A DNA stretch of 64,000 nt, from assembly GCF_028994805.1 (NCBI RefSeq), contig NZ_JAJQQP010000007.1:1-64000 (forward strand), read 5' to 3'. The position numbers were made by a program, and so were the translations under genes. The notes beneath the pieces are model-generated. The model was not told where the DNA came from. It did no database searches and saw only the letters and a list, made by a program, of their open reading frames with translations. Source of the DNA: Promicromonospora iranensis (GTDB lineage: Bacteria; Actinomycetota; Actinomycetes; Actinomycetales; Cellulomonadaceae). Of the stretch, positions 35,784 to 38,109 are shown in pieces. Each line of letters starts with the position of its first letter. Position 1 is the first letter of the stretch.

Positions 35784-36920
35784 CTAGATCCAGCGCTTCC
35801 AGCGGAAGACGCCGAAGAGGCCGACGCTCACGGCCAGCATCGCGACGAGCGCCGCCGGGTAGCCATACGCCCAGTCGAGCTCCGGCATGACGTCGAAGTT
35901 CATGCCGTAGACGGTGCCGACGAGCGTCGGGGCGAACAGGATGGCCGCCCAGCCCGAGATCTTCTTGACCTCCTCGCCCTGCCGGATGCTGACCTCCGAC
36001 AGGTGCTTCATCTCCTCGTTCTGCCGCTGCGCGACGAGAGTGGCGGCCACGGTGAGGATGTCGCGCAGCGCGGCCCGGAAGACCTCGATACGGTCGGCCG
36101 CCTCGGTGAGGTGGTCCGCGATGTCGCGCAGGTAGGCCTGCAGCTCCGGGTCCACGCCGTACTTGTCGGCCCCCTTGGCGAGCGAGGCACAGAGGCTCTG
36201 CTCGGGCCGCACCGCGCGCTGGAAGTCGATGACCTCGCGGGACAGCTCGTAGATGCGCCGCGACACGTCAGGGGCGCCGCCCCAGACGTCGGACTCGATC
36301 TCGTCGATGTCGTGGTCGAGCCCCGCGACGACCGGCGCGTACCCGTCCACGACGCTGTCGAGGATCGCGTACAGGACGGCCTCCGGCCCGCGGGAGAGCA
36401 TCTCGCGGTCGGACTCCAGCTGGCGCCGCACGGCCGCCAGGTCGGGCGAGGCACCGTGCCGCACGGTCACGACGAAGTCGGGGCCCACGAAGACGTGCAG
36501 CTCGCCGAACTCGACCTCCTCGACGTCGTCGAGGTAGCGAGCCGCACGGAGCACCACGAAGAGGGTGTCGCCGTAGCGCTCGATCTTGGGCCGCTGGTGC
36601 GCCTGGATGGCGTCCTCGATCGCGAGGGGGTGCAGGTCGAACTCCCGCGCGAGCGACGTCAGCTCGGACTCGTCCGGCCGCTCCAGCCCGATCCAGGCCA
36701 TGCCGCCGGGCCGGGAGCGGAGCGCACTGAACGTCTCGGCGAGGTTGTCGTAGCCGGCGGTGCGGATGCCGTCGTCGTAGATCGCGGCGGCGACCACCGA
36801 CGAGCGGGGCGCGGGCGCGGCAGGACGCGGTGCGACGTCGGGCACGACGTCGACGGCACGACGCTGGCGCAGGGCGCCGAGCAGCGGGCGGGACGGGCGG
36901 GAGGGCAGGAACGTAGCCAT
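35784..36920 (-). CDS. corA: CorA-family magnesium/cobalt transporter
   Basis: A 378-residue channel. The soluble N-terminal domain (about 40-290) has the long stalk helices. TM1 (about 318-337) ends in the signature GMN motif within YGMNFDVMPEL, and TM2 (about 349-370) has the basic tail RWKRWI. The first 40 residues are Arg/Pro-rich. AGGAG lies 5 nt before the ATG. A 5' leader of about 250 nt carries a 13-codon reading frame with Glu-Pro-Pro, which suggests translation-based Mg control. Mg, Co or Zn specificity cannot be read from sequence. Confidence 0.9.
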   Translation of the reverse strand: MATFLPSRPSRPLLGALRQRRAVDVVPDVAPRPAAPAPRSSVVAAAIYDDGIRTAGYDNLAETFSALRSRPGGMAWIGLERPDESELTSLAREFDLHPLAIEDAIQAHQRPKIERYGDTLFVVLRAARYLDDVEEVEFGELHVFVGPDFVVTVRHGASPDLAAVRRQLESDREMLSRGPEAVLYAILDSVVDGYAPVVAGLDHDIDEIESDVWGGAPDVSRRIYELSREVIDFQRAVRPEQSLCASLAKGADKYGVDPELQAYLRDIADHLTEAADRIEVFRAALRDILTVAATLVAQRQNEEMKHLSEVSIRQGEEVKKISGWAAILFAPTLVGTVYGMNFDVMPELDWAYGYPAALVAMLAVSVGLFGVFRWKRWI

Positions 36921-37190
36921 GAGGACTCCTGGGGTCGAGCGCAGGAAAAGGACTGCGAACGGACACCGCAGCAGAGACGGCCGAACGACCGGTGGACCTC
37001 ACGCCCGAGAAGGGCGGAGCGCACCGGTGCGCGAGAACCCGCGAACACGCGGGAGGGGAACCGTCAGCTCAGCTGCGGTTCGGACTACTCGGAGGCTCGC
37101 TGCGGGTCATGCGCGCCACCTCCTTGGTCCCTGCGGCGGATCGCCGCGCCGTACGTTCTCGACAGTGGCCCAGTCTAGCCACGCCGAGGC
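36921..37190 (-). promoter_or_regulatory. corA leader region
   Basis: A candidate promoter TTCGAT-18 nt-TAGACT (TAGACT at 37172-37177) lies on the minus strand, giving a leader of about 250 nt. It contains the leader peptide (37069-37110). Several hairpins follow before corA, including CCCGCG/CGCGGG, CGCACCGGTGCG and GAACCG/CGGTTC, the last overlapping the end of the leader frame. Alternative pairing could couple ribosome movement to corA expression. I do not recognise an M-box or ykkC fold. Confidence 0.5.
37069..37110 (-). CDS. corA leader peptide (MTRSEPPSSPNRS)
   Basis: A 13-codon frame, too short for routine gene calling, with an ideal ribosome-binding site AAGGAGGT 7 nt before the ATG. 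It encodes Met-Thr-Arg-Ser-Glu-Pro-Pro-Ser-Ser-Pro-Asn-Arg-Ser. Runs of acidic residue plus prolines destabilise ribosomes at low Mg; this is how the enterobacterial MgtL leader peptide controls mgtA. The place upstream of a Mg transporter and the EPP motif suggest the same principle. The function is inferred. Confidence 0.55.
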   Translation of the reverse strand: MTRSEPPSSPNRS

Positions 37191-37230
37191 GCGGAATCGA
37201 ACCCTTTCGAGAGCAGGATCACACAACTCG

Positions 37231-38109
37231 TCACCAGGCGTCGTGGGGGCGGTGGTTCACTCCCGGCGGGGTGTGGAACTCCTGCGGCGTCGGCGACAGG
37301 TAGGCGCGCGCGAACTCCAGCGACGCGGCCAGGTCCTCGTGCCGCTCGGCGGCCGTGCGGGCCGCGCGGGTGGAGATCTCCACGCAGACGTCGCCGCTCC
37401 AGCGCCGCGCGACCAGCTCCTGGAGCACCTTCTCGGCCTGCATGCTGCCGCGGCCGGGAACCAGGTGCTCGTCCCGGGGGCCGTGGTTGCCGTCCGCGAG
37501 GTGCACGTGCCGCAGGCGGTCGCCGAACGTGTCCAGGAGCATCAGCGCGTCCTGCTGCGCCACGCTGGCGTGCGACAGGTCGAGGGTGACGGCGTCGTAG
37601 TCGTGCTCCGCCGGGTCCCAGCCGGGCAGGTACGCCTGGAACTCCCGCTTGCCACCGCGCCAGGGATACATGTTCTCGACGGCGATCGTGATGCCGGTCG
37701 TCTCGCTCAGCGCGCGCACCTGCTCCTGGAACTGCCGTGCGTACTTGTACTGCCAGCGGAACGGCGGGTGCACCACGACGGTGCCCGCCCCGAGCTCGAG
37801 CGCCATCTCCGCGGTGCGTTCGAGCTTCGCCACCGGGGACCGGCCCCAGACCCGCTGGCTCACCAGCAGCGTCGGTGCGTGCACCGAGCGCACGGGCATG
37901 CCCGTGTCGGCGGAGAGCTTGGCGAGGGAACGAGGGTTCTGTGTGACCTCCTCGGACCAGATCATGACCTCGACCCCGTCGTAGCCGAGCTCTGCGGCCG
38001 CCTCGAAGGCCAACGGCACACGGCGTGGGAAGACCGACGCCGTCGACAGCGTGACCTGCACCTCGGGTGCGGCCGGCTCGTGCGGTTCGGTCCGGATCGG
38101 TTCGGGCAT
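37231..38109 (-). CDS. Sugar phosphate isomerase/epimerase-like (TIM barrel)
   Basis: A 292-residue protein of the xylose isomerase-like AP-endonuclease 2 superfamily. The barrel pattern includes LSTASVFP, GYDGVEVMIWSEE, VRSVHAPTLL, TVVVHPPFRWQ, ITIAVENMYPW (metal Glu), VTLDLSHAS (metal Asp) and RHVHLADGN. The substrate is not known. The ATG at 38109 has AAGG 8 nt upstream. It lies downstream of ptsI on the same strand. Confidence 0.75.
   Translation of the reverse strand: MPEPIRTEPHEPAAPEVQVTLSTASVFPRRVPLAFEAAAELGYDGVEVMIWSEEVTQNPRSLAKLSADTGMPVRSVHAPTLLVSQRVWGRSPVAKLERTAEMALELGAGTVVVHPPFRWQYKYARQFQEQVRALSETTGITIAVENMYPWRGGKREFQAYLPGWDPAEHDYDAVTLDLSHASVAQQDALMLLDTFGDRLRHVHLADGNHGPRDEHLVPGRGSMQAEKVLQELVARRWSGDVCVEISTRAARTAAERHEDLAASLEFARAYLSPTPQEFHTPPGVNHRPHDAW

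Follow-up and report, generated by a model that had tools for sequence, protein, structure and literature searches.

A predicted leader reading frame with conserved proline codons precedes Mg2+ importer genes of three families in actinobacteria

Is a short reading frame ahead of a corA gene in a high-GC Gram-positive bacterium a leader that senses Mg2+ through the ribosome and, if so, which of its features would do the sensing? The locus that raises this question lies in the window analyzed here, a stretch of 64,000 nucleotides from Promicromonospora iranensis, where the initial annotation had proposed a Glu-Pro-Pro leader peptide with possible Mg-sensing destabilization of the ribosome. The frame, MTRSEPPSSPNRS, occupies 37110..37069 on the minus strand, with 13 codons from the ATG at 37110 to the TGA at 37071..37069, and reads ATG ACC CGC AGC GAG CCT CCG AGT AGT CCG AAC CGC AGC TGA. 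It stands behind the strong Shine-Dalgarno (SD) sequence AAGGAGGT (37118..37125, minus), which is also the 5' arm of a hairpin and is conserved in an alignment of 32 sequences (A2). From the leader stop it is 148 nt to the start of corA (35784..36920, minus; ATG at 36920, SD AGGAG at 36926..36930, minus), whose 378-residue product is a CorA-type Mg2+ transporter (Pfam PF01544, E 1.5e-62) with its nearest relatives, 94-96% identical, in Promicromonospora. A hairpin, AACCG-CAGCUGAGCUGA-CGGUU, spans the leader stop codon (37059..37080, minus) in the sequence and in alignments. The frame with its strong SD, this hairpin and the identity of the downstream gene were all borne out as first described.

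Further elements are predicted on the same strand. The core codons GAG CCT CCG AGT (Glu-Pro-Pro-Ser; 37087..37098, minus), delimited by codon counts and by the codon usage of CorA genes, contain the stretch CCUCC, which is complementary to the SD; the start codon falls in the loop that separates the two. This SD arm, loop and CCUCC arm form a conserved region at 37083..37131 (minus) that is matched by R2, our leader model with structure, at E 5.5e-13, and a possible lower helix would join GGAC (37130-37127) to GUCC (37085-37082, minus), as a pairing test on the leaders suggests. Between the leader and corA, the sequence and an alignment point to a hairpin CCCGCG-UGUU-CGCGGG (37038..37053, minus), and a weak terminator-like hairpin followed by CCUUUUCC lies at 36952..36972 (minus), approximately 30 nt before corA; one such structure was found against a shuffled mean of 0.2, and it aligns in five Promicromonospora loci with a shorter loop in L004. 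Upstream, TAGACT (37172..37177, minus) is a possible, weak -10 box for the leader; in 17 of 24 loci of the family a TA[GA][AG][CA]T box lies at a distance of 61-116 nt upstream of the motif, and a sigma-70 scan found no promoter-like site. Of two other candidate outputs, pairing between the Pro codons and the corA SD was rejected, own partners scoring no better than swapped ones (P 0.23, 48 loci); for Rho, the region from leader to gene shows no excess of C over G (mean best 0.128 in 43 loci, against 0.182 within CorA), composition being a weak proxy for such sites.

Conservation of the Glu-Pro-Pro frame among corA relatives was one check proposed with the initial annotation. We took the best 80 of 539 confirmed CorA relatives from named genomes and looked upstream of each for a frame of at most 45 codons with an SD and with [E/D/Q]-P-[P/S] 2-6 codons from the start, whatever the codon of the first proline (Pro1). 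Such a leader precedes 53 of the 80 genes. It was found in none of the control regions: the antisense strand of the same upstream region (0/80), the inside of CorA (0/80), the antisense strand of CorA (0/80) and the region 550-1000 nt upstream of CorA (0/79, since the contig of L055 begins there and its windows are short). The same holds before CorA genes of a second subfamily (0/20), where a looser acid-only test gave one match (L210, GDPSS). The carriers, named by their record titles, include Promicromonospora, Antribacter, Myceligenerans, Isoptericola, Cellulomonas, Xylanimicrobium, Arthrobacter, Kineococcus, Kribbella, Aeromicrobium, Nocardioides, Micromonospora, Blastococcus, Modestobacter, Klenkia, Marinactinospora and Thermobifida. 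Of 29 non-redundant sites from named genomes, chosen by nucleotide motif only, 28 have, 6-18 nt ahead of the motif, a start codon (ATG or GTG) that is preceded by an SD, counting in-frame starts only. Two loci, one from Streptomyces hainanensis (L025) and L065, have a leader peptide by eye and failed the SD rule; they are excluded from the 53. In a sample that partly overlaps the 80, the top 50 CorA loci from 197 genomes of the class, the leader is present in 21: the P. iranensis locus, 19 of 29 further loci and one of 20 loci fetched by position (L181).

The Kitasatospora and Streptomyces loci among the 80 have no leader by this test. Of 25 corA loci viewed, 11 from these genera that lack the Pro-Pro-Ser leader (L044, L046-L049, L054, L056, L057, L064, L068 and L070) share another conserved short frame, M-E-[C/R]-S-S-x-G-R-S-R-P, behind GGAGGTGAGA. 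In a Frankia locus (L060 and L162, probably one locus counted twice), corA is preceded by yet another short frame, MSPGHSPRLSWAGSATPAA, behind a strong SD.

Searches that ignored the neighboring genes gave a broader picture of the targets. They used R2 and a sequence-only leader model, R1, and all E-value cut-offs were chosen after the lists had been seen. The P. iranensis genome contains a single leader-model match at E <= 0.1, with E 2.7e-13. R1 gave 19 matches at E <= 1e-4 in the 197 genomes, of which 17, that of P. iranensis included, have CorA downstream and two have MgtE (Pfam PF01769, PF03448 and CBS); in the 11 loci that follow (L101-L111), CorA is absent. Some R1 match at E <= 0.1 occurs in 148 of the 197 genomes, and we take weak matches to be mostly chance. 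The family to which the MgtE cases belong gave, in 121 genomes, 11 matches at E <= 5e-4: seven before MgtE, two of them already seen in the 197 genomes, and four before CorA. Phylum-wide, in 296 genomes, all five R2 matches at E <= 1e-8, again including P. iranensis, precede CorA or MgtE; at E <= 0.003 there are 30 matches, seven of which precede CorA, MgtE, NRMT (the magnesium-type NRAMP) or CBS-NRMT and 23 of which do not, with leader-like frames in two of the latter (L225, MRDSDPPSRG; L236, MSGEPPSRPF). At the level of the order (149 genomes, several also in the named set), the seven matches at E <= 3e-8, P. iranensis among them, precede CorA, and the remaining 18 of 25 have neither CorA, MgtE nor NRMT/CBS downstream.

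Some of these loci have features of their own. In L225 1522-1866 and L108 1534-1855 (reverse complement), the leader VRDSDPPSRGRA.RQPR lies approximately 180-200 nt before a conserved hydrophobic ORF of 28 residues (MSRYVAPLSFTLAAVWVAVVFVLAGGGH in L225); no known importer is found there, and the product may be a small membrane protein with a part in Mg2+ homeostasis. In six loci (L083, L096, L211, L212, L213 and L216), pairing is possible between the 3' portion of the leader frame (CCGCGCGGCGCC) and sequence resembling GGCGCCUCGCGG that separates the leader from mgtE; it could be a switch helix.

A third importer family came from a second class of the phylum, in which 198 genomes gave 28 matches at E <= 0.003. 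Ten new loci (L273, L275-L278, L282, L285, L287, L291 and L292), and also L233, have a protein with MgtE_N and CBS domains downstream, and in L229 an NRAMP protein directly follows the leader. Among the other 16 matches, 14 of which were examined, no importer was shown, and one (L280) has a leader-like frame at a contig end. L274, a strong match (7.9e-8), has no tested importer downstream and resembles the start of a longer protein. In longer stretches around 12 loci picked for having the leader, the order is leader, CBS gene and NRAMP gene in 11 and leader and NRAMP gene in one. The NRAMP protein of L229 (Pfam PF01566) has as its best solved relative 7qia (E 2.4e-52; next best 9e-14), and this structure is EleNRMT, a characterized Mg2+ transporter to which MgtE and CorA are called unrelated (PMC8806188). 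CorA, MgtE and NRMT, three unrelated importer families linked by Mg2+, thus share the leader. This ties the conserved leader ORF to Mg2+ import more strongly and more widely than first proposed.

The leader is by no means obligatory at such genes, and its absence from 27 of 80 CorA loci, 29 of 50 CorA loci of the class, 16 of 18 MgtE loci examined (two have it) and 29 of 30 NRMT loci is evidence against a shared switch. The last figure refers to the best 30 NRMT loci of a protein search in 246 genomes, judged by the peptide test, and the sole clear leader among them, L295, is in the same place as L229. Two other NRMT loci, L297 1156-1192 (+) and L300 2698-2734 (-), have a G-rich tract followed by CUG AAA CCC CCN AGU ACC; if CUG served as the start, the peptide would be x-K-P-P-S-T. 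Their model E-values are 0.0019 and 0.0092.

The most strictly kept features of the leader are codons. In the 53 leaders, which are related yet cover approximately 20 genus-level groups, the residue before Pro1 is Glu in 41, Asp in eight and Gln in four (L041, L066, L071 and L078). Gln also occurs in L165-L167, L181, L214, L217-L219, L223 and L276, and the Gln leaders include those of Thermobifida (MSQPPSTN), Marinactinospora and Nocardioides. An acidic residue is thus common but not required, and most leaders have one acidic residue rather than an EPDP series. Pro1, on the other hand, is encoded by CCU in 28, CCC in 24, CCA in one (L041) and CCG in none, i.e., CCC or CCU in 52 of 53. The next position is CCN in 42 leaders and UCC in the 11 of Kribbella, giving Pro-Pro and Pro-Ser, respectively, and the following Ser codon is AGU in all 42 Pro-Pro-Ser leaders, with AGA in its place in Kribbella. 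Codon usage in the CorA genes themselves, counted over the 80 loci, is different: CCG makes up 50.1% and CCU 2.7% of Pro codons and AGU 1.8% of Ser codons. One leader outside the 53 reads EPPG (L143). Loci of the second class were left out of these counts because the search model behind them had been built from CC[C/U] leaders. The codons (CCC or CCU for Pro1, AGU for Ser) are therefore kept more strictly than the acid.

Published work bears on this choice of codons. Diproline is formed more slowly at CCC and CCU than at CCA or CCG; before C or U, CCC and CCU also slip +1, and in that context E. coli avoids them as the first codon of a proline pair (PMC8129111). Decoding of CC[C/U] needs m1G37 of tRNAPro, which is made by TrmD in a strictly Mg2+-dependent reaction; Salmonella mgtL carries CC[C/U] codons, and mgtA responds less to Mg2+ in a trmD mutant (reviewed in PMC6335274). 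Glu, Gln, Asp, Lys and Arg before PPP are all strong stalls in E. coli (PMC4176338), which would explain why Glu, Asp and Gln form a group without regard to charge, although those data concern PPP and not PP; the residues flanking the motif fit the strong stallers so defined.

We hypothesize that the leader is a cis-acting translated attenuator of Mg2+ importer genes, in which the signal is the speed of reading CC[C/U]-[C/U]CN and low Mg2+ turns the importer on; we give this a probability of roughly one half. We infer its translation, the pause, the Mg2+ response and its sign, the switch from leader to transporter and the output, which may be termination or translation. The ribosome would initiate at a strong SD, one that can be sequestered by a hairpin, and within 3-6 codons slow down at [E/D/Q]-P-P-S, whose Pro1 codon, CCC or CCU, has C or U after it. 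After slow or aborted reading the hairpin across the stop codon would be free to form, and full reading would melt it; by our reckoning of the geometry, a ribosome paused at the Pro codons would leave most of this hairpin free and one at the stop codon would cover it. The two hairpin states would then give more or less transporter mRNA or translation. Mg2+ could enter, e.g., through the Mg2+-dependent methylation of tRNAPro G37 by TrmD, through the stability of the paused ribosome or through both, so that low Mg2+ would slow the leader and turn the importer on. A translation-speed attenuator with a slow CC[C/U]-[C/U]CN pair is the most economical and the most likely reading of the locus. The position of the leader before importers suggests that many lineages of the phylum use such an attenuator as a shared, ribosome-read Mg2+ switch.

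More tentatively, and at less than even odds, this may be a phylum-wide codon-specific Mg2+ sensor that evolved independently of mgtL, in which the reading of CC[C/U]-[C/U]CN-AGU, through TrmD methylation or the stability of the paused ribosome, would decide the expression of CorA, MgtE or NRMT with need of neither the acid nor a metal-binding riboswitch. The conservation of AGU is unaccounted for by a tRNAPro model.

The mechanism favored by the initial annotation, MgtL-like intrinsic destabilization in which an acidic residue next to an N-terminal proline drops ribosomes at low Mg2+, now seems to us unlikely. Enterobacterial mgtL works by acidic-proline destabilization of the ribosome, and changing Glu2 and Asp4 of E. 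coli MgtL to Gln and Asn is reported to leave no detectable mgtA fusion (PMC11282234); Salmonella mgtQ requires Asp2 and Glu5 (PMC8092293). Glu or Asp is also present in 49 of the 53 leaders, at most six codons from the start by the test rule. However, Gln replaces the acid in several lineages, a single acidic residue is the rule, the codons are the stricter constraint, and the change between Glu and Gln tracks hairpin pairing: in the four Gln leaders of alignment A2, the first base of CAA or CAG enters a G-C pair (columns 18-35) that in Glu leaders is often C-G or U-G, so that the choice may follow pairing in part. Of the original proposal, then, the conserved leader ORF of Mg2+ importers was supported, and the acidic residue as a destabilizer of the ribosome was not supported as stated; acidic-proline destabilization is one candidate among several, with another better supported. 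Because nature has swapped the acid for Gln and kept the codons, the leader could help to separate acidic-proline destabilization from codon-specific reading of proline in mgtL itself.

We give a similarly low probability to a reading in which the locus is mainly an RNA switch. The SD hairpin, which Mg2+ might stabilize or a factor bind, would control initiation on the leader, and the peptide would be incidental. The hairpin, whose tests bear on the attenuator as well, is less firmly established by sequence than the reading frame and its codons. Swapping in the SD regions of other loci weakens pairing with the motif (P 0.0055, 51 loci). In the 32 sequences of A2, the two-helix hairpin has 14 double-change cells against 6.2 when shuffled, a count reached in none of 500 shuffles; all five inner pairs show double changes, and slid structures score lower. 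The inner helix surpasses swapped partners (P 0.0015, 41 sequences), the lower helix around the SD hairpin gives P 0.0044 (52 leaders), and folding energies are low (mean z -0.51, P 0.0045, 43 sequences). The conserved AGU and an A adjoin the CCUCC arm in A2. Covariation was counted on a trimmed alignment and the permutation tests leave shared ancestry in; the cells-paired figure leans toward the proposed hairpin, since the structure was written from single folds. RNAalifold returned no consensus structure and no pairs from a first, loose alignment, and in the outer helix covariation is absent at the three positions tested, two at its edge and one pair in its middle (P 0.56, 0.36 and 0.26). 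Against the RNA switch, the motif is in frame with a start at 28 of 29 sites, and the Pro1 wobble base is C or U, yet this C stays unpaired with the A of GGAGG, an A-C mismatch found in the SD arm of 12 of 41 leaders. No Rfam family fits either: the whole window at gathering thresholds gave four tRNAs and no Mg2+ family, positions 36850-37300 at E <= 1 gave nothing, and 10 leader loci at gathering gave nothing.

Elsewhere in the leader RNA, the stop-spanning hairpin aligns in Promicromonospora and in Isoptericola/Myceligenerans, with A-U in L018 where the others have G-C (by eye). Kribbella shows a covarying outer stem around the entire SD hairpin, GCGAGAUC / GAUCUCGC or GCGAGACC / GGUCUCGC, in ten aligned loci between L029 and L052.

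The two remaining explanations are far less probable. In the first, a +1 frameshift at CC[C/U]-[C/U] would fuse the leader to the transporter or carry ribosomes through the leader region, the motif being a +1-prone sequon (PMC8129111, PMC6335274). Fusion to CorA was rejected, since the distance from motif to corA within Promicromonospora is 183, 184, 183, 179, 179 and 180 nt and the frame relation is therefore not kept. Long +1 frames are common (median 168 codons, 51 loci), but at high GC such alternative frames are expected. In the second, the leader would sense proline or charged tRNAPro and Mg2+ genes would respond through the link between Mg2+ and translation, which is hard to credit: Pro codons are the conserved sense codons and Salmonella mgt leaders reportedly respond to proline, but there are two Pro codons only and the strong targets seen are Mg2+ importers.

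An attenuator read by the ribosome at its proline codons remains our preferred reading. The leader offers a cheap marker of Mg2+ importers among CorA, MgtE and NRAMP paralogues. No earlier description of the leader was found in open-access titles and abstract openings or in passages of PMC11109978 and PMC11550727. Mg2+-sensing leader peptides are known from enterobacteria, and a high-GC Gram-positive phylum would here show the same logic arising again.

Several known systems resemble this leader in part. In the actinobacterial ilvB1 and whiB7 uORFs, the state of leader translation sets expression of the next gene (PMC13236596), as proposed here; their signals, however, are amino acids or drug-stalled ribosomes and not Mg2+. 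The M-box (ykoK) riboswitch likewise controls Mg2+ genes in cis, in Mycobacterium tuberculosis together with a conserved uORF that has a conserved proline and with an exchange between SD and anti-SD (PMC12810186), whereas the target genes differ and no Rfam M-box was found in the window or in the 10 leader loci. Salmonella and E. coli CorL is a uORF in the corA leader in which a helix can cover the leader SD (PMC11552253); its conserved N-terminal region is reported there to have a single proline, and the actinobacterial leader, unlike CorL, also stands before other importer families. MgtL of enterobacterial mgtA is also a short translated leader of a Mg2+ importer, with early CC[C/U] proline codons by acidic residues and hairpins around the ORF, and both the SD-preceded importer-leader ORF and the CC[C/U] codons (52/53) recur here. 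MgtL has EPDP where the actinobacterial leader, which gave no match in Rfam, has [E/D/Q]PPS, and we do not class the leader as MgtL because its acid, when tested as a feature, proved replaceable by Gln. The target of MgtL is a P-type ATPase, whereas the targets here are CorA, MgtE and NRMT in actinobacteria, for which we propose that the leader would work like mgtL or corL.
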